Shown: in pieces, positions 7,220 to 16,767 of the stretch
Position numbering within the stretch: position 1 is the first letter of the stretch
How the letters are laid out: each line of letters begins with the position of its first letter
From: Gemmatimonadota bacterium
Lineage (GTDB): Bacteria; Latescibacterota; UBA2968; GCA-2709665
Assembly (NCBI GenBank): GCA_002709665.1
Contig: PAQK01000041.1
Location: 23,694 to 58,653, forward strand
DNA length: 34,960 nt
Direction: 5' to 3'
The notes under the pieces: model-generated
Seen by the model: only the letters and a program-made list of their open reading frames with translations
Database searches by the model: none
What the model was told of the DNA's origin: nothing
Translations under genes and position numbers: made by a program

Positions 7220-7419
7220 AATCCCCTGGAGCTTCCTATTACAGTGCCCGGCCTGGACTTCAAATCATCCAGGGTAAAGCTTCCTTTGAATTCCCTACGA
7301 AGGACCTTTTTGACTTCCCTTAGAGAGCAACTCCTCCAAAGCCGACCATCTGAAGATTTCCGGTATTCCATACAGGGCCTCCTGATGTTGTAGTTCCTTA
7401 CATATTCATATGTGCATCA

Positions 7420-7433
7420 TATACAAATGTATA
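7420..7433. promoter_or_regulatory. Candidate operator, perfect inverted repeat TATACA-AA-TGTATA
   Basis: TATACAAATGTATA, flanked by outer GTGCA...TGCAC. Shares ATGTATACC(A/C)TAT with the dnaE2 upstream site. Confidence 0.4.
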
Positions 7434-7604
7434 CCATATTGTGCACCAAGTCAAGAAGAAATTGCGTCGCCCCCTTTACAGAATATAAGAAGTTAGGCTC
7501 TCCCCGTGCCAAATTCTGCAAGCCACCATTCCCATATATTTCCCCCACGGTCACTACCAATCTCCCCTCCCTGGAAACCATGTAGCGCCTGAGGGAGGCT
7601 CCCT

Positions 7605-7960
7605 ATGAATCCAAGTTTACTCCTGGTTGATGACAACACCGAAATTCGAGCAGTACTGCGTGATTCCCTTACGGGTCAATACAATATTGTCGAAGCCGGC
7701 GACGGCCAACTCGGGCTCACGGAAGTCATAGTTGGCGACCACAACATCGACCTGGTGGGCACAGATCTGAGCAGGCCGGATACCGACAGGGTAGAGCTGA
7801 TAGAAAACCTGCCCGACAGGATGAAGTACATCATCATATCCGGCTATCTAAAACTGCCCCATACAGGGGTGCACTCAAGCACCTGAACCCTGTGGCTGTT
7901 CTGGAGAAGCCCTTCGAAGTACAGAATCTGCGGGATACGATCGAACAGACCCTATCGTGA
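7605..7960 (+). pseudogene. Receiver (REC) domain protein interrupted by a frameshift
   Basis: LLLVDDNTEIRAVLRDSLTGQYNIVEAGDGQLG...DLVGTDLSRPD...KYIIISGYLK, then a frame change to GALKHLNPVAVLEKPFEVQNLRDTIEQTLS*. The Asp and Lys of a receiver domain are present. Confidence 0.7.
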
Positions 7961-7977
7961 AAAGAGATTCCTAAACC

Positions 7978-8012
7978 AAAGGACGGCTGACTAACGTCGG
8001 CCGTCCTTTCCC
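7978..8012 (+). terminator. Rho-independent-like hairpin after the REC gene
   Basis: AAAGGACGGC-tgactaacgtcg-GCCGTCCTTT. Confidence 0.6.
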
Positions 8013-8017
8013 AAAAA

Positions 8018-8491
8018 ATGGATACTCACCAGACAACAACTGTGGCCATCATCTCGGATTCTCACGACCTGGTTCGGCCGGAGATCGAAAACTTCCTGAG
8101 ATCCTCGGACCTTGTAGTTCACGCCGGCGACGTTGGATCAGATCAAACTCTCGAAGGTTTCCTATCGCTCAACGACGACATTACATTGGTGAGGGGCAAT
8201 GTCGATCTGGACACGAAAGTGAGCCGGCTCCCTGAACGCGCCATACTCGAAGTCGAAGGCCGTAGCATCCACATCGTCCACGATATCACAACCTTTTCCC
8301 CGGGAGCAGATGCTCCTGACATCGTCGTCTTCGGTCACTCCCACAGACCGCTCGAGGAGAAGAAAGGCAATACCCTTTTCGTGAATCCCGGGAGCATTGG
8401 CCCAAGACGATTCTCTCTACCCATCTCCTATGCATCTCTGGATCTGGCAGAGGATGTTTTCTCACTGCAATTCCACACCATTGCTCCCTAG
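8018..8491 (+). CDS. MJ0936/YfcE-family metallophosphodiesterase
   Basis: VAIISDSHD...LVVHAGDVGS...VRGNVD...VFGHSHRPLEEKKGNTLFVNPGSIG. Confidence 0.85.
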   Translation: MDTHQTTTVAIISDSHDLVRPEIENFLRSSDLVVHAGDVGSDQTLEGFLSLNDDITLVRGNVDLDTKVSRLPERAILEVEGRSIHIVHDITTFSPGADAPDIVVFGHSHRPLEEKKGNTLFVNPGSIGPRRFSLPISYASLDLAEDVFSLQFHTIAP

Positions 8492-8501
8492 TATATCGCT
8501 C

Positions 8502-9284
8502 TCACTCACCGTTCGGTTCTGCGGATTGGTACCGCTCTATAACATCACTGAGTGTGGCCTCTGAAACGTGACTGGAGGCCAGGGCGGTAAAGCGATGGAC
8601 GTATAACACGTCCTCCCCAAGAAGCAGTTCAAGATCCCTTTCTCCCGGACCATCCGCAGCAACTTCGATATTCGACATCACGTAGGCAAAGATCTTCTTC
8701 TGTTCGAAAACGACCTCGGAAAGCAAGTGGCTTACTGATGCCCCTTTCAACCTGTAACTAACGGTGAAACTGGTCTCATCCATGCTGTCCGGATGTCTCT
8801 GGAACACAGTGTAGACCGTGATGCGGGTTTGGCCTCCTGCTGAAACAGACACCGTGGCAGGCGCTACAAATTCGAAGGAGCTTACCGCAAGGCCCTTCTG
8901 GAAGTTCTTGGCCAGACTGCCTACGGACAAAACCACATCCGTGTCTTCGACGAAAACTGATCCACCACCCAGGTCGCTTGCCGACTCAATCATCTTTCCA
9001 AGTGCCTCCCGTCCCCCCAGACACACGCCTTCCGCAGCTTCCTGAGAAGCGTGTTCCTGCGCTTCGGAACCGTCCTCGTCATCCATCTCTTCACCATCCT
9101 CCGGGTCACCCGGATTCGACGTCTGCACCTCGTCCTCTGAGGGGGGCTTCACCTTGAAAGCGGTCGCCTGATTGTCGCGACTAACTATCCTGAAATAGTC
9201 CTCCTCGTACCCCTTAAACCATGTTTCCAGAGCCAGTCGCAGCGCATCTTCTCCATCAATGGCTCGTATCACCTTTTCTTGCAT
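8502..9284 (-). CDS. Conserved-looking hypothetical protein with an acidic linker
   Basis: 260-aa ORF with GC-biased codon use. The central acidic low-complexity stretch (DEVQTSNPGDPEDGEEMDDEDGSEAQE) separates two globular-looking parts. Confidence 0.55.
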   Translation of the reverse strand: MQEKVIRAIDGEDALRLALETWFKGYEEDYFRIVSRDNQATAFKVKPPSEDEVQTSNPGDPEDGEEMDDEDGSEAQEHASQEAAEGVCLGGREALGKMIESASDLGGGSVFVEDTDVVLSVGSLAKNFQKGLAVSSFEFVAPATVSVSAGGQTRITVYTVFQRHPDSMDETSFTVSYRLKGASVSHLLSEVVFEQKKIFAYVMSNIEVAADGPGERDLELLLGEDVLYVHRFTALASSHVSEATLSDVIERYQSAEPNGE

Positions 9285-9422
9285 TTTCCCTACCTCTTCT
9301 GGTGTTTGGCAAAAGAATCGACCCTAGTAACTTCCCGTGTTGATCAATGATATGCCATCATCCACATCCTGTCCAGTGCTAATCCCTTGTCCGTTCTCCT
9401 GCTGACCGATGCCCTTGAGTAC

Positions 9423-9436
9423 TACACGTATGTATA
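9423..9436. promoter_or_regulatory. Candidate operator TACACG-TA-TGTATA upstream of the radical SAM gene
   Basis: Resembles the element at 7420-7433 and the one upstream of dnaE2. Located about 47 bp before the ATG at 9483. Confidence 0.4.
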
Positions 9437-9482
9437 GTATATTGATCTTGCACAACATTTCTCACTTACCGGAGTCAGCCTC

Positions 9483-10520
9483 ATGTCAACCAAGCTCCTC
9501 GGCCGATCCACCGGGCAGAATCCACCGAACCGATTTCACCAACTTCATTTGGAGAGCGACACGAATCCACTACGGATCCCCACCCGTTTCCTGGTGGACA
9601 TTTCGCAGTCCATACTCGCGGAAAACGACAGTCCCGATTTGCCGTTCAGATACAGCGTAAATCCCTACCGGGGGTGTGAGCATGGATGCATTTATTGTTA
9701 TGCCAGGCCCAGTCATGAGTTCCTCGGCTTTTCCGCCGGCTTGGACTTCGAAACGCAAATTCTCGTAAAGAGAAATTCACCTTTCCTCCTCCGGCAGTCG
9801 CTTGGAAAGCCGTCCTGGATCCCCCAGTCCGTCGCCCTCTCGGGCAACACGGATTGCTACCAGCCCATAGAAAGAAAGCTCAAACTGAGTCGATCTTGTC
9901 TGGAAGTCTTTCTGGATTTTCGCAATCCGGTCAGCATCATCACCAAGAACCATCTCGTCACGCGTGATACGGACATCCTCTCCTGCCTCGCCGACCAGGA
10001 CCTTGTTCATGTGGTCCTATCCATCACAACGTTGGACGACGACCTGCACGCCAGAATGGAACCACGTACCTCGAGTCCGTCGAAACGACTCCACGCCGTC
10101 CAGACGCTCGCCGAAGTGGGAGTTCCCGTTGGTGTCAACCTCGCTCCGGTGATCGCCGGTTTGAACGAAGAAGAGATTCCGGATATTCTCCAGGCCGCCA
10201 GAGACAGCGGGGCTTCCTGGGCGAATTACATCCTCCTTCGCCTGCCGGGTCCCGTCAGTCCCCTGTTCCAGGAATGGCTTGGCCGCAACTATCCCAACAG
10301 AGTCCAAAAAGTCCTGAATGGGTTGAAGCGCGTCAGGAATGGGAAGCTCTCCGATTCCAAGTACGGATCCCGGATGCGTGGAACCGGCTCCGGTGCGGAT
10401 CTACTCCAGAGTTATTTCGAAATGTCCAGGAGGAAAGTCGGATTTGGGCAATACGATCACACCTTGCGCACGGATCTCTTTCGTCTGCCCTCGGACAGGC
10501 AACTCACGTTGGAGTTGTAG
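9483..10520 (+). CDS. PA0069/Rv2578c-type radical SAM protein (spore photoproduct lyase-like)
   Basis: NPPNRFHQLHLE, YSVNPYRGCEHGCIYCYARPSHEFLGFSAGLDFETQILVK (CX3CX2C), SGNTDCYQPIERKLKLSR, ITKNHLVTRDTDIL. Confidence 0.9.
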   Translation: MSTKLLGRSTGQNPPNRFHQLHLESDTNPLRIPTRFLVDISQSILAENDSPDLPFRYSVNPYRGCEHGCIYCYARPSHEFLGFSAGLDFETQILVKRNSPFLLRQSLGKPSWIPQSVALSGNTDCYQPIERKLKLSRSCLEVFLDFRNPVSIITKNHLVTRDTDILSCLADQDLVHVVLSITTLDDDLHARMEPRTSSPSKRLHAVQTLAEVGVPVGVNLAPVIAGLNEEEIPDILQAARDSGASWANYILLRLPGPVSPLFQEWLGRNYPNRVQKVLNGLKRVRNGKLSDSKYGSRMRGTGSGADLLQSYFEMSRRKVGFGQYDHTLRTDLFRLPSDRQLTLEL

Positions 10521-10734
10521 GCGATTCATCCGCTACAGAATGTAGAAGTGGCGCGAGCCCTGGGGCCGACGCTCGATTCTTTTCCGTAGCCGAAACTCTT
10601 CCCTGAGGAGAGAAGTTATATCGGCTAGGACAAGCCGATGTTGTTGGAGTCACTTGTTGTGGCTGTAGACCCGGCGAAGGGTCACTCGAGAATTGATGTG
10701 CTGCGATCTTCGGCCTCCGTCAACCTCTGACACA

Positions 10735-11637
10735 TTATGTAGATAGAACCTGTGCGAATTCGAAGTACTGTTTCAGTTGGCGGATGTTTTGGAGGGCGTT
10801 CAGGATCGCTTTGCTCTGGTGTGTGTTGGTGTAAACCACGGCCACCTGACTCGCTTTGTGCACGAGACCGATCTGTCCCTGGATGCGCTCTTCGATCTGC
10901 GCTTCCGTGTAGAGATAGTCGGCTCGTTCATCCTTGGCCTTCTTTCGATTCGATCGCCAGGCCTGGAAATTCAATCCATTATATCGGACATAAGCCTTCT
11001 CTGTCGTGGCGTAAGACTTGAGGGGAAACACATGTGACATCGGTGGAATTTCCGCATTGCATACCCCGATACCGTTGTTCTTCAAAACCTGCAGCGGATA
11101 TGAATTGTGCCAGCTAGCGTGTCTGAACTCAATGTGCACATCGAAATTTCGTTCCAGCGCCTCGGAGGCGATTGTCAGAAAATAGTCCAGTGCCTGTTGG
11201 CTCCTGTGCACTCGATCTTCGAGCTGGATTAAAAAACTGTAAAACTTCCCCGTCTCCACGATCGGCACCACAGCGGACATCAGCCTGTGCATCAGATCGA
11301 TCTTGGGTACAGGATCCCAGTTGTCCGTATGGGATATATCCCTGTGAACCCGAACAGCGAACCGCATTTCCACCTTGCTGTTCTTCTCGAGCTCATCAAA
11401 GAAATCAAAAGAGGGTTCCTCGTTGAACGTGCGATTGATTTCAACGAACGAGAAATACCTCTGATAAAATCTGAACCGTTCCAGGTCTTTCTCGGATTCG
11501 GCCGTTTTTTTTTCGGGCGGGTTGAACCTGTCCACCCAATCATCGTAACTGTACCCCGCAACACCCACCCAGAATCCGGAACCGGTGATATCAGGTGGTG
11601 GTGTGATGGGCTTCCATGTCTTCATCTGTTTTGGCAT
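10735..11637 (-). CDS. DUF72 (YecE-like) protein
   Basis: FWVGVAGYSYDDWVDRFNPP...FRFYQRYFSFVEINRTFNEEPSFDFFDELEKN...RFAVRVHRDISHT. The 5' end overlaps the end of the imuB-like ORF. Confidence 0.85.
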   Translation of the reverse strand: MPKQMKTWKPITPPPDITGSGFWVGVAGYSYDDWVDRFNPPEKKTAESEKDLERFRFYQRYFSFVEINRTFNEEPSFDFFDELEKNSKVEMRFAVRVHRDISHTDNWDPVPKIDLMHRLMSAVVPIVETGKFYSFLIQLEDRVHRSQQALDYFLTIASEALERNFDVHIEFRHASWHNSYPLQVLKNNGIGVCNAEIPPMSHVFPLKSYATTEKAYVRYNGLNFQAWRSNRKKAKDERADYLYTEAQIEERIQGQIGLVHKASQVAVVYTNTHQSKAILNALQNIRQLKQYFEFAQVLST

Positions 11638-12796
11638 CGGAAAGAATATTGAGATAGGATGCATTGAGCACGCTGTCGAAGCCCATCTTTTCCCGAATAT
11701 GGGAGATGGCATACGTACGTTGTCTGAATTTGCTTGCGGTGTTGCTTTCGAACAAATTCAACTGGCCGTCATCTACCAGCGGGCTCCTCACGACCGCACG
11801 AATCGACTTGATCGCAATCCTGCGCTGATACAACTGTTCGAACGTCTCCACAACAACGGGCATCAGTACGGGGAACTCATTGGTAGGGCTTCCCAGCTTG
11901 ACGGTCTTCCGTGTCGTCCTGTCATCGGAATACTTCAGAACAACCGTCACGCGCTTCGTCTTCATACCCCGCGACTTCAACTGATGGCTCAACTTATCGG
12001 AAATCAGCTTTGCATACTGTTTCAGGCGTGAGAAATCATTGATGTCTCGGTTTAAAACGGACTCTACCCTCACTTCGCGCCTCTTTCCCTCCACCTGCGG
12101 CACCAGATCCACCCCCCTCGACAAACTGTAAAGCACTTCCCCCTCTTTTCCCAGCCTGCAAGCCAGAGATTGGCGGCCCAGGTTGCGTACCTGCTTCACA
12201 GTTTGTATCCCATACTTTTTGATTCGCTCCCTCACCCCATCTGAGATTCCAGGCAACACTTCCACATCCAGAGCTTCCAGCGTATCCTCTTCCTCGCCGG
12301 GATTGCATATCTCCACACCGGAAGGACAGGCCAGTGTCGCCAGCAGTTTTGCCAGCAGCTTATTCAGAGAGATACCGAAAGCCACGTCGGTTATCCGAAT
12401 CTTGTATCTGATTTCATCTCCCAGTTCTTCCACAATACACTTCGGATTTTTACTTGCCCACGTACCGGAAAAATCCATCAGGCACACGCCGGAATCCTGC
12501 ACATAAAACTCCGGTGTGTATTCCTCCATGATATGCGTGAGATCCTCACGTGCCGTGGCCTCCCATCGATTATCATACTGAACCATCTTGACCTCGGGAA
12601 AATCTCGCCGGATCACACGTACAGGCGTGTCCGGTTTGACCCCCATATCCACTGCAACAAAAGAACAGGCCGACACGGAAGTCTTATGGCTTTCCGGATT
12701 CTGTTTCACAACCACGAATGGTGTATTCAGAAATCTGGGATTGTACGCGGCAAAGGCCTGAGCCGCGAACTGATCCATCACAACGCAGAAATGCAT
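11591..12796 (-). CDS. imuB: ImuB-like inactive Y-family polymerase
   Basis: Y-family fold cues (VVMDQFAAQAFAAYNPRFLNTPFVVV, EYTPEFYVQDSGVCLMDFSGT). The usual SxDE catalytic motif is replaced by DSGV. A beta-clamp motif QLNLF is near the C-terminus, and the gene lies immediately downstream of dnaE2. Confidence 0.85.
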   Translation of the reverse strand: MHFCVVMDQFAAQAFAAYNPRFLNTPFVVVKQNPESHKTSVSACSFVAVDMGVKPDTPVRVIRRDFPEVKMVQYDNRWEATAREDLTHIMEEYTPEFYVQDSGVCLMDFSGTWASKNPKCIVEELGDEIRYKIRITDVAFGISLNKLLAKLLATLACPSGVEICNPGEEEDTLEALDVEVLPGISDGVRERIKKYGIQTVKQVRNLGRQSLACRLGKEGEVLYSLSRGVDLVPQVEGKRREVRVESVLNRDINDFSRLKQYAKLISDKLSHQLKSRGMKTKRVTVVLKYSDDRTTRKTVKLGSPTNEFPVLMPVVVETFEQLYQRRIAIKSIRAVVRSPLVDDGQLNLFESNTASKFRQRTYAISHIREKMGFDSVLNASYLNILSDAKTDEDMEAHHTTT

Positions 12797-12817
12797 CGCG
12801 GGATGCTCCTCGACAGA

Positions 12818-15800
12818 TCAAGCAACTGCGACAGGCTCGATATCTGCATAGGTGTAGTTCTGGAACGAATCCTTGAGACGATCCGAGGCGAGTTCGAAGT
12901 CCACCTGATTCGGTCGCCACTCCGCAGCCTTGATGGAATGGGCTTCCAGCGAAAACGTGCCCCAGTCTTCGACAATCTGTCCCCATATCTCATAGGGACC
13001 CGGTTTGGCCAGCACATCACCGAAACGTTTGTAGTTTCTCGGCCAGAACAGCACGTCCACCACACCTGTCTTGTCCTCCACCGAAAGAAACTGCATCGGT
13101 TCTCCCGTGCTGGTCACATGGATCCGCTCTGTAACCGGCCAGCCGAACACCTTTACCCCCTTGCCCACATACTTGTGTGCTTCATTGGCAGGAATGGCAC
13201 TTTTGGACCCCGGATGGAGATCCAGAATCTCCAGGATATTCCCCGAAAGCATAAATCCCAGAAGATGAAGTTCATTCAGACACTTCTCCGTCAGTGTATA
13301 ATCATGAAGACCGGGATGCAAATCCCTCAGACGGGCTGAAAACAGAGCCGACTTGTACGAACTCCCCTTCCCATAAATCCCATCCAGCAGATACAGCATC
13401 TCCGGCTGGCTCATCCCAAAACTGTCAAAAGCACCTACAAGGATCAGCTTCTCCACTTCGTGTCTGTCGATCTTCATTCGTGTAATGAAATTCTCCAAAT
13501 TGTTGAACGGGCCTTCGCGCTCCCGTTCCAGCACGATCGCGTCCTGACTCTTCTGCGTCAAACTGCGAATGTGCATCAACCCCGGCCGAATCCAGTTGAA
13601 CTTCCCCCAGTACTTGATGCCTGACTCGTTGATCTGGATGGGAAGGATGCGCACACCCCATCTTCGCGCTTCGTTCAGATATGCGTCACGGGTATAAAGC
13701 CCATGGTTGTTGCTGATGACCGCAGAGAGAAATTGAGCGGGATAATACGCCTTCAGATACGTGCACTTGAAAGACAACTGCGCGTAACTCGCGCTGTGTG
13801 ATTTGCAGAAACTGAATCCATAAAAAGAACTCACACGTGTCCACAGCTCTGTGGCTTGTGCCCGTGTAAGTCCCTTATTTCCCATGCACCCTGCAATGAA
13901 CTCCTCGGCGGTCCTCTTCCACTGTTCGGACGGCACATCACCTTCGTGCAAACTGTTCATCATCTTCCGCACACTATCGGACTTCTTGTAACTGAGCCCG
14001 GCAATGTGGTGACAGATCTTCGTCACATCCTCTTGGAACGCGCAGACATCGTGTGTCTCCTTCAGAAGAGGTTCCAGGGATGGATGCAGAAAATCCCAGT
14101 CCTTGATCCCTTCCTTCATCTTCCGATGACGATCGATGAACACACTGCAGTACGATGCACCCGCCGGACGGACAAGACTCGACGTAATGGTCAGCTCTTC
14201 GAAAGTCTGCGCCTGAGCTTTTTTGTTCAACCGGGTCTGAGCGGGACTTTCGATAAAGAAAACCCCCTTGGTCCTGCCCTTGGCAATGATGTCCTGAACA
14301 AGCGGGTCGTGACAACACTTCTCCAGATCCCACACATTCGGATCCGGAAGCGACTGGTCTTCGAGCTGTCCCAGGGCATCCCGGAGCACAGAAAGAGAGC
14401 CATTGCCCAACACATCGAACTTGATCAAGCCGAGCTCATCGATCCCGTTGTACATATCGATCTGAGTGATAACACGATCTTTTTCCCCTCCCGATCGCTC
14501 CAGCGCTACGTGTCTCCAGATCGGGTCATTGGTAATCAGGAGCCCTCCGGGGTGCTGTCCCAGAAAGCGGGGCCTCCCTTTAATGCGTTTTGTGATCGAA
14601 CCGATTTTGCTGATCTCCGAATCTTCCAGTCTCTCGATCCTCGTCTTCTGGCTCTTCATAATCTGTGTGACCTGTTCCTCGCTGTACCCGTACACTTTGG
14701 CCGTTTCCCGAAATGCGGCCCTAGTGCGGAAATGGTTCGTGGTACAGGTAATCGCCACCCGGTCTTCTCCCCACTTGTCGATGATATAGTCGATCACCTG
14801 ATCCCGTTCGTCCCATCCAAAATCGAGGTCCGCATCCGGAGGGGAAGCCCGATCCTCATTCAGAAACCGCTGAAAGTAGAGGTCATATCGAATCGGATCC
14901 AGATCGCTTACCCCAAGATTGTAGAATGTGATGGAATTCGCAGCACTCCCCCTAAGAATCGAGCAATCCCTAGGTCTTCGATACGCATTGCTCAATTTGC
15001 CATTGGCCCAATCTCGAATGTCCTTCACAATCAGGAAATAAGACGGGTAGCCCAATCTGGAGATGACCCCGAGCTCCATTTCCTGAATCTGCTTCGCCCG
15101 GGCATACTCCCTGGTCCCACCATAATTCTCCTCCAGTCCTTCCCTGGCGTAGCCGGCCAGCAGAGCATCCGGCGTAGTTCCTTCCGGTACATCTATTTCT
15201 GGAAGGATCCATTCATTGAGGGTCAACATCGCGTTGCACTGGTCTGCCAGCTGTCTGGTATTCGAAATGGCTTCCCTGTGGTTGAAGAAGGATCGCCCCA
15301 TCTGTTCGGAAGACATGAAATAGGCGTTCTTCGCGGCGATCTCGTCCGGTTCCAGTCGCGACAACGTGGATGACAGACCGATGGCGGTCAGTGTCCTGTG
15401 CAGATCCCATTCTGAGGATTCCAGGAAATACGAATTGTTGGAAACGATAAGCGGAACACCCAGTGTCCCGGCCTTTTGTTCGAGAACTCTGCTTCTATTT
15501 CTGGTAAGCTCTGAATTATTAATGAGTTCTCCATAGAGGTTGGCGCGATTCGGTGTTGCGGCCATCAGCTCCAGAAGGTGGGGGAAACTGGTGAAAAAGA
15601 ACAGATTGGGCCATTCCTTCTCGAAAACCCTGGAAAAGCTGAAATGCGGATCCAGATGTCTATACGTAATCACCTCGCAAAGGTCCCCGTACCCCTCGGC
15701 ATTTTTGGCCAGAAGCACAATGTGCTCGCCCGGTTCCCGGGGATTTGTGAGCTCTACGCCCAGAATCGGTTTGATGCCCTGCTGTACACACTCCAGATAA

Positions 15801-15952
15801 AAGAGAATCAGACCACTCATCCGGTTCGTATCTGTCAGTGCAACCGACTGCATGCCAAGGGTTTTAGCCCGATGTACCAATTCTTTGACCGTACAAACAC
15901 CCGCATGAAAAGAGAACACCGAGTGACAATGCAGGGGAACGAAATCAACCAT
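12818..15952 (-). CDS. dnaE2: DNA polymerase III alpha subunit, error-prone DnaE2 type
   Basis: PHP start MVDFVPLHCHSVFSFHAG, polymerase motif PDADLDFGW, GQHPGGLLITN, NGIDELGLIKFDVLG. Paired with an imuB-like gene. The probable start is the ATG at 15950-15952 rather than the upstream start at 16009. Confidence 0.93.
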   Translation of the reverse strand: MVDFVPLHCHSVFSFHAGVCTVKELVHRAKTLGMQSVALTDTNRMSGLILFYLECVQQGIKPILGVELTNPREPGEHIVLLAKNAEGYGDLCEVITYRHLDPHFSFSRVFEKEWPNLFFFTSFPHLLELMAATPNRANLYGELINNSELTRNRSRVLEQKAGTLGVPLIVSNNSYFLESSEWDLHRTLTAIGLSSTLSRLEPDEIAAKNAYFMSSEQMGRSFFNHREAISNTRQLADQCNAMLTLNEWILPEIDVPEGTTPDALLAGYAREGLEENYGGTREYARAKQIQEMELGVISRLGYPSYFLIVKDIRDWANGKLSNAYRRPRDCSILRGSAANSITFYNLGVSDLDPIRYDLYFQRFLNEDRASPPDADLDFGWDERDQVIDYIIDKWGEDRVAITCTTNHFRTRAAFRETAKVYGYSEEQVTQIMKSQKTRIERLEDSEISKIGSITKRIKGRPRFLGQHPGGLLITNDPIWRHVALERSGGEKDRVITQIDMYNGIDELGLIKFDVLGNGSLSVLRDALGQLEDQSLPDPNVWDLEKCCHDPLVQDIIAKGRTKGVFFIESPAQTRLNKKAQAQTFEELTITSSLVRPAGASYCSVFIDRHRKMKEGIKDWDFLHPSLEPLLKETHDVCAFQEDVTKICHHIAGLSYKKSDSVRKMMNSLHEGDVPSEQWKRTAEEFIAGCMGNKGLTRAQATELWTRVSSFYGFSFCKSHSASYAQLSFKCTYLKAYYPAQFLSAVISNNHGLYTRDAYLNEARRWGVRILPIQINESGIKYWGKFNWIRPGLMHIRSLTQKSQDAIVLEREREGPFNNLENFITRMKIDRHEVEKLILVGAFDSFGMSQPEMLYLLDGIYGKGSSYKSALFSARLRDLHPGLHDYTLTEKCLNELHLLGFMLSGNILEILDLHPGSKSAIPANEAHKYVGKGVKVFGWPVTERIHVTSTGEPMQFLSVEDKTGVVDVLFWPRNYKRFGDVLAKPGPYEIWGQIVEDWGTFSLEAHSIKAAEWRPNQVDFELASDRLKDSFQNYTYADIEPVAVA

Positions 15953-15982
15953 GAAAAGACTCCATTCTTTTGCGAGAAATAG

Positions 15983-15996
15983 TGCACATATGTATA
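15983..15996. promoter_or_regulatory. Candidate operator TGCACA-TA-TGTATA upstream of dnaE2
   Basis: Lies about 30 bp before the likely dnaE2 start. Shares ATGTATACC(C/A)TAT with the 7420 site and TATGTATA with the 9423 site. Confidence 0.45.
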
Positions 15997-16767
15997 CCCT
16001 ATCCTCCATTTAATGTCAAGAAAAAAGCATGATCTTTTACACGGAGCCTGGCTGTTGGAAAAAGATCGAGTCGGTGATTTTGGGGGCTTTGTTCAGGTCT
16101 TCTGATTAGAAGGAACAGCAAATGAAGGGGGGTGTCTCAGGCCCTTATTGACGACCAATTACCGAGGACCTAGGAGGATTGGTCTTTTGGGCAGCGAGGA
16201 AATACTGTGGATCGGGTCCTGGTGGTGAGAGATGTATCCAAGGGTTGAGAGGACGTAACCGCCGATCGAAATGGCATAACTCCAGCATACTCAATTAAGC
16301 ACAGGCCATCCCCTGGGCTTTTGCTATATCATATGTTGCAAATCGGCAACATAGAAAATACCTTGTCCTATAGATGGGATCTGCGAACCCGGTTCGCGAT
16401 ACCATCGAGCTGGGTATAGTAGACGAACACACAGGTTCGTGAATGTCTTGTTAAATGAAAGCAGCGCAAGAATCCCAACCACAACACCTCCAAAAACCGC
16501 GCACAAGGAAATTCAAATGCAAGCAAAGCTGGCTGTGGAACTTGATGCCCGCCGCTGCCGCAGCAATCGCCTCTTTGGGGTCCTCCGTGTGGGGGCTTCC
16601 CAGAAAATTAGCCAATTTCATCGTCCAAGCCGGCAATCAGCACGGTGATGGCTTGAGGGAGGACCTCTGTGACACGATGAGAGTCACCCATCCTGGCAGA
16701 CAATCTTCAGTTTGCCCTATGATTGCCGAAAATCAAGTCCTTCAACCAATGAGGCGGCCTGAACGCC

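Follow-up and report, generated by a model that had tools for sequence, protein, structure and literature searches.

LexA represses the genes of the SOS response, and its repression is relieved by self-cleavage that RecA stimulates. Its operators, the LexA or SOS boxes, are among the best cases of a regulator whose target motif has changed repeatedly in evolution. The box of Fibrobacter succinogenes is reportedly TGCNC-N4-GTGCA. The Gram-positive LexA (DinR) of Bacillus subtilis and Staphylococcus aureus recognizes CGAAC-N4-GTTCG (PMC9578287, Table 1), the cyanobacterial box is written as RGTACNNNDGTWCB or AGTACWNWTGTACT (PMC3091678), and a paper from 2021 counted 17 distinct LexA motifs (PMC8565304). 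Our search of the literature, which covered only a minority of the subscription journals, found no description of the box reported here, no SOS study of this lineage and no LexA motif from a comparable uncultured group.

In this study, we analysed a stretch of 34,960 nucleotides (hereafter the window) that contains three palindrome-like sites with a TGTATA half. Judged from sequence, the three sites are very probably LexA operators of this lineage. The predicted LexA box is 14 bp long, T-R-N-A-C-N4-G-T-N-Y-A, and its usual half-sites are TGAAC, TGCAC, TACAC and TATAC. Like the Gram-positive box it is a 14-bp dyad with an AC-N4-GT core, and the box of the host lexA gene (TGAACTAATGTTCA) contains an exact GAAC-N4-GTTC; unlike it, the outer base is T/A instead of C/G, and positions two and three are less strict (TATAC, TACAC, TGCAC). 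Among the host boxes found, the lexA box alone has both the GAAC and the GTTC half, the strict form CGAAC-N4-GTTCG is not matched, and the three window sites are built from TATAC, TACAC or TGCAC halves, none of them GAAC/GTTC. The cyanobacterial box shares the 14-bp dyad and the AC-N4-GT core, and its -TAC-N4-GTA- half-site version resembles TATAC-N4-GTATA, but its flank is AG/CT where that of the host is T(A/G)/(T/C)A. The Fibrobacter form fits the box of a host sigma factor (TGCACATATGTGCA) and the TGCAC half of the dnaE2 box, whereas the boxes of host lexA, recA and uvrA have TGAAC or TACAC halves, and a TATAC half is frequent. The predicted box thus falls within the Gram-positive GAAC-N4-GTTC class as a variant that tolerates TATAC in place of one half-site, and the form that the original prediction took to be undescribed belongs to that class. 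With its mixed half-sites within one genome, the motif would bridge the Gram-positive, cyanobacterial and Fibrobacter forms. The relevant features of the window are as follows.

7403..7416, no strand: second, weaker putative box TATTCATATGTGCA (matrix, fourth best in window)
7420..7433, no strand: putative LexA box TATACAAATGTATA, perfect inverted repeat around AA (matrix, extended motif)
7605..7960, + strand: response-regulator receiver gene, frame broken, which the 7420 site may control
9415..9420, + strand: -35 hexamer TTGAGT (composite, 0 mismatches)
9423..9436, + strand: predicted LexA box TACACGTATGTATA in the promoter spacer (matrix, composite pattern)
9438..9443, + strand: -10 hexamer TATATT (composite)
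9483..10520, + strand: PA0069-family radical SAM protein (443.7 bits, cut-off 360)
10735..11712, - strand: DUF72 protein, last gene of the cassette
11591..12796, - strand: Y-family protein, DinB-like, ImuB-like by its replaced catalytic Asp-Glu pair (alignment)
12818..15952, - strand: DnaE2-like C-family DNA polymerase, below the cut-off for canonical error-prone DnaE2
15983..15996, - strand: predicted LexA box of the dnaE2-like operon, TATACATATGTGCA on the minus strand, with TATACA as -10 (matrix, relatives)
16014..16019, - strand: -35 hexamer TTGACA, separated by 17 bp from the -10 of the dnaE2-like promoter (layout common to four relatives)

The three sites and their first consensus

Direct reading places the sites at 7420-7433 (TATACAAATGTATA), 9423-9436 (TACACGTATGTATA) and 15983-15996 (TGCACATATGTATA), as originally described, and the distances of about 30-50 bp to start codons also hold, being 46 bp to the ATG of the radical SAM gene (9483) and 30 bp to the ATG of the dnaE2-like gene (15952, minus strand). 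The narrow consensus first proposed for them, TRYACRNNTGTATA, matches the window 17 times when up to two mismatches are allowed, against 4.1 ± 2.2 matches in shuffles (maximum 9), with palindromic sites scored on both strands. Its exact form occurs in only three places of the 5.27-Mb genome, which are the three window sites, all inside 8.6 kb. With one mismatch, the pattern occurs 40+28 (68) times in the genome versus 43+36 (79) times for its reversed control; being no commoner than the control, the narrow consensus is not a genome-wide regulatory motif. The genome scan that the original prediction had proposed as a check therefore speaks against the motif in its narrow form and, as described below, in favour of the corrected TRNAC-N4-GTNYA. 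An Rfam scan of the window gave no match.

Host LexA and the corrected box

LexA is present as a single copy in the host genome (one Peptidase_S24 match). The protein scores 235.7 bits against TIGR00498 (cut-off 111), has the wHTH and self-cleaving S24 domain of a canonical LexA, and its Ala-Gly cleavage site, Ser and Lys align with those of a solved LexA. Its own promoter, TTGACG-AA-TGAACTAATGTTCA-C-TATATT, carries the box expected for autoregulation, and TRNAC-N4-GTNYA was derived from this promoter together with that of the host recA gene, TTGATT-AA-TACACATATGTTCA-G-TATATT. The radical SAM promoter of the window, TTGAGT-AC-TACACGTATGTATA-G-TATATT, has the spacing and placement of the lexA and recA promoters and a closely related box. 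Although the narrow motif does not resemble the lexA box at first glance, the two are linked through recA, since TACAC-N4-GTTCA shares one half with each.

When the box with its adjoining -10 (TRNACNNNTGTWYANTATATT) was searched in the host genome with up to two mismatches, 15 matches were found versus 2 in the control. The eight best of these lie at recA, lexA, the radical SAM gene, the sigma factor (on two contigs), uvrA, the 7420 site and C19:73227, the last without an obvious gene. With the -35 added to give the full composite, 7 matches were found versus 1 in the control, with exact matches at the sigma factor (two contigs), recA, lexA and the radical SAM gene, and one mismatch at uvrA. 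The fragmented assembly comprises 84 contigs, with contamination estimated at 8.8%, and neither lexA nor recA is on the contig of the window; a mix-up of contigs is unlikely, because the same boxes are found in genomes of the same family. The guess that the sites are of LexA type agrees well with these data: a single canonical LexA is encoded in the host, its lexA, recA and uvrA promoters contain boxes with the geometry of the window sites, and a matrix made from relatives only ranks the three sites first.

TATACA/TGTATA-like palindromes near UV-repair genes resemble the operators of LitR/CarH, and the exact narrow pattern is confined to the window, so that TGTATA-type palindromes at such genes might be thought to serve not LexA but, for example, a MerR-type B12 photoreceptor of the CarH/LitR kind or a local repressor. 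A CarH/LitR operator was indeed our first idea, and it was dropped because the recA and lexA promoters carry the same box. We regard any such non-LexA regulator as very unlikely, given that the box geometry, the placement relative to -35 and -10 and the flanks are also seen at lexA, recA and uvrA, and that the recA boxes of relatives include an exact copy of TATACATATGTGCA, a set which a local regulator would not yield.

Under regulation by LexA, the overlap with core promoters suggests how the sites could work: the 9423 box lies in the 17-bp spacer and the 15983 box lies over the -10. In the undamaged cell, a LexA dimer on the box would block RNA polymerase, either from within the 17-bp -35/-10 spacer, as at the radical SAM gene, recA, lexA, uvrA and the sigma factor, or from over the -10, as at the dnaE2-like operon. 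Upon DNA damage, RecA filaments would form and bring about LexA self-cleavage, and the box-bearing promoters would open. We infer from the established biology of LexA that it would bind the sites and that damage would induce the genes behind them.

Conservation in related genomes

Every one of the 30 lexA loci obtained, that of the host among them, has the box, 28 of them with an exact fit to TRNAC-N4-GTNYA, and the stricter composite is present in each of the 21 genomes searched (host included) with 0 control matches in every one. Exact boxes also precede recA in the host (TACACATATGTTCA) and in G002, G004, G005, G015, G019, G020, G021 and G028; the recA loci of several relatives from more distant families had no box at the threshold used, and some other loci were unreadable. 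The recA box of G015 is TATACATATGTGCA, identical in every letter to the dnaE2 box of the window. Because TATAC halves are common in the recA boxes of this group, the TGTATA half is a normal half-site here; the original prediction had placed it in every site, and it stands as an allowed half, although one of several and with GTTCA and GTGCA commoner. At the level of sequence, the LexA and RecA genes, their boxes, the promoter placement, the genome-wide specificity and the conservation in relatives can be regarded as established.

An independent score was obtained with a symmetric matrix built from 34 distinct boxes of 20 relatives (G001-G020), host sequence excluded. It ranks the window sites 15983, 9423, 7420 and 7403 highest, at 17.8, 14.6, 13.9 and 13.1 bits, and the fifth site reaches 7.2 bits. 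Since the training boxes were gathered with the pattern GT(T/G)CA, the matrix is biased against GTATA halves and not for them. The chance expectation per window under a first-order Markov model of the same composition is 0.03 for 15983, 0.18 for 9423 and 0.29 for 7420; the set of sites is well beyond chance, and each of the weaker sites taken singly is not.

The matrix also bears on another explanation, namely that the shared letters are -10 hexamers (TATACA, TATATT) alone, without an operator. TATACA does form the -10 of the dnaE2-like promoter and TATATT does follow the 9423 box; the similarity that was seen to extend rightwards from the sites is, at 9423, this very -10 hexamer, and at 15983 the promoter is oppositely oriented and TATACA itself is the -10. 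However, TGCAC (15983), TACAC (9423) and the inner GT lie outside the hexamers and yet fit the relatives-trained 14-bp matrix, and four relatives retain the outer half (GTTCA, GTGCA) in their dnaE2-type promoters on the downstream side of the -10, where no promoter element needs it. An explanation by -10 hexamers is therefore hardly credible.

The DnaE2-like cassette

All four relatives with a readable dnaE2-type promoter (G020, G015, G035 and G022) have a box that overlaps the -10, in a layout where a TTGAC -35 is followed, after 17 bp of spacer, by TATAC or TACAC-N4-GT(T/G)CA. The corresponding pattern with the box over the -10, TTGAC-N18-TATACNNNNGTNCA, has one exact instance in the host genome, and this is the dnaE2 promoter of the window. 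An open reading frame was called from 16009, a position inside this promoter and upstream of the box that is an unlikely start.

The window polymerase scores 528 bits against the canonical DnaE2 model PRK05672, below the curated cut-off of 939. In its Y-family partner, the Asp-Glu pair of solved Pol IV (SIDEAYLDVT) aligns, as read by eye, with non-acidic residues (query DSGVCLMDFS), which is a loss of the ImuB type, and the protein also carries QLNLF, a motif like those that bind the clamp. A DUF72-like reading frame likewise lies downstream in G020, by sequence reading. Compared with the LexA-controlled ImuB-DnaE2 mutasome, the window is alike in having a box over a DnaE2-like promoter and a Y-family protein without the Asp-Glu pair. 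It is unlike the mutasome in that the polymerase falls below the DnaE2 cut-off, the partner is DinB-like and no ImuA is seen adjacent, and in that two relatives, G035 and G024, additionally carry a separate ImuB-like/DnaE2/PA0069 operon.

The radical SAM gene

In those two relatives the second operon, separate from the DnaE2 cassette of the window type, comprises an ImuB-like protein, a more typical DnaE2 and, as its third gene, the PA0069 radical SAM protein, and the box precedes the first gene. In G035 the ImuB-like protein has weak Pol IV matches only, and the other DnaE scores 869 bits (cut-off of the canonical DnaE2 model, 939). As the radical SAM gene is grouped with SOS mutagenesis genes in relatives, a box of its own in the window fits well. 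The PA0069 genes of five other full-length readable relatives have no exact box directly upstream, and in the literature we found no paper naming PA0069 together with LexA. The ImuB-like/DnaE2/PA0069 operons behind a LexA box are located at L310:1426-7529 and L312:1202-7558.

A shorter radical SAM gene, a distant relative of PA0069, has an SOS composite promoter directly upstream at G003:C25:11608-12215 (L281) and at G002:C65:18031. In the window, a 260-aa protein without a Pfam or NCBIfam match is encoded at 8502-9284 on the minus strand, between a phosphoesterase and the radical SAM gene.

The pair of boxes at 7403 and 7420

The 7420 site lies between uvrC and the broken-frame receiver-domain gene. 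A fourth box that was absent from the original prediction, TATTCATATGTGCA at 7403-7416, stands 3 bp from it. The pair may be functional, as would be suggested by adjacent boxes whose scores are third and fourth of the window and well clear of all others, and as the lexA promoters of relatives also have a second weak box (TATTCAAATGTGCA) beside the main one. That the pair is instead a LexA site in decay, or a decoy, next to the broken receiver gene and no active SOS promoter is nevertheless a real possibility, to which we give somewhat less than an even chance: no good -35 was found for the 7420 site in either direction, none of the small reading frames at 7220-8020 is convincing as its target, and the frame of the receiver gene downstream is broken. 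The break lies near 7886, and the C-terminal part (LEKPFEVQNLRDTIEQTLS) continues in another frame.

Predicted SOS regulon and further candidates

It seems probable, if by no means assured, that TRNAC-N4-GTNYA is a LexA box peculiar to this lineage, whose TATAC half can double as a -10, and that the predicted SOS regulon includes an RpoS/RpoD-like sigma factor, the PA0069-family radical SAM protein, a second cassette (DnaE2-like, inactive DinB-like and DUF72) distinct from imuB-dnaE2, and a family of about 100 aa without a Pfam match. The box would provide a usable search pattern for SOS genes in a poorly studied group, and would link the damage response to a sigma factor and a radical SAM enzyme of the PA0069 type.

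The sigma factor belongs to the sigma-70 family and is RpoS/RpoD-like, scoring below the cut-off of every model listed, and its box TGCACATATGTGCA is perfect. The gene is present on two host contigs (G000:C9:37545-37573 and G000:C36:47701-47729; L316, L317) that are identical over at least 1.7 kb, which reflects either a duplication or redundancy of the assembly. Similar sigma-factor genes with boxes are found in G001, G004, G014 and G015. The protein family of about 100 aa (G000:C1:64792-65182; L215, L290) occurs in 25 of 41 genomes, and LexA-like boxes lie upstream of it in the host and in several relatives, making it a candidate new SOS gene.
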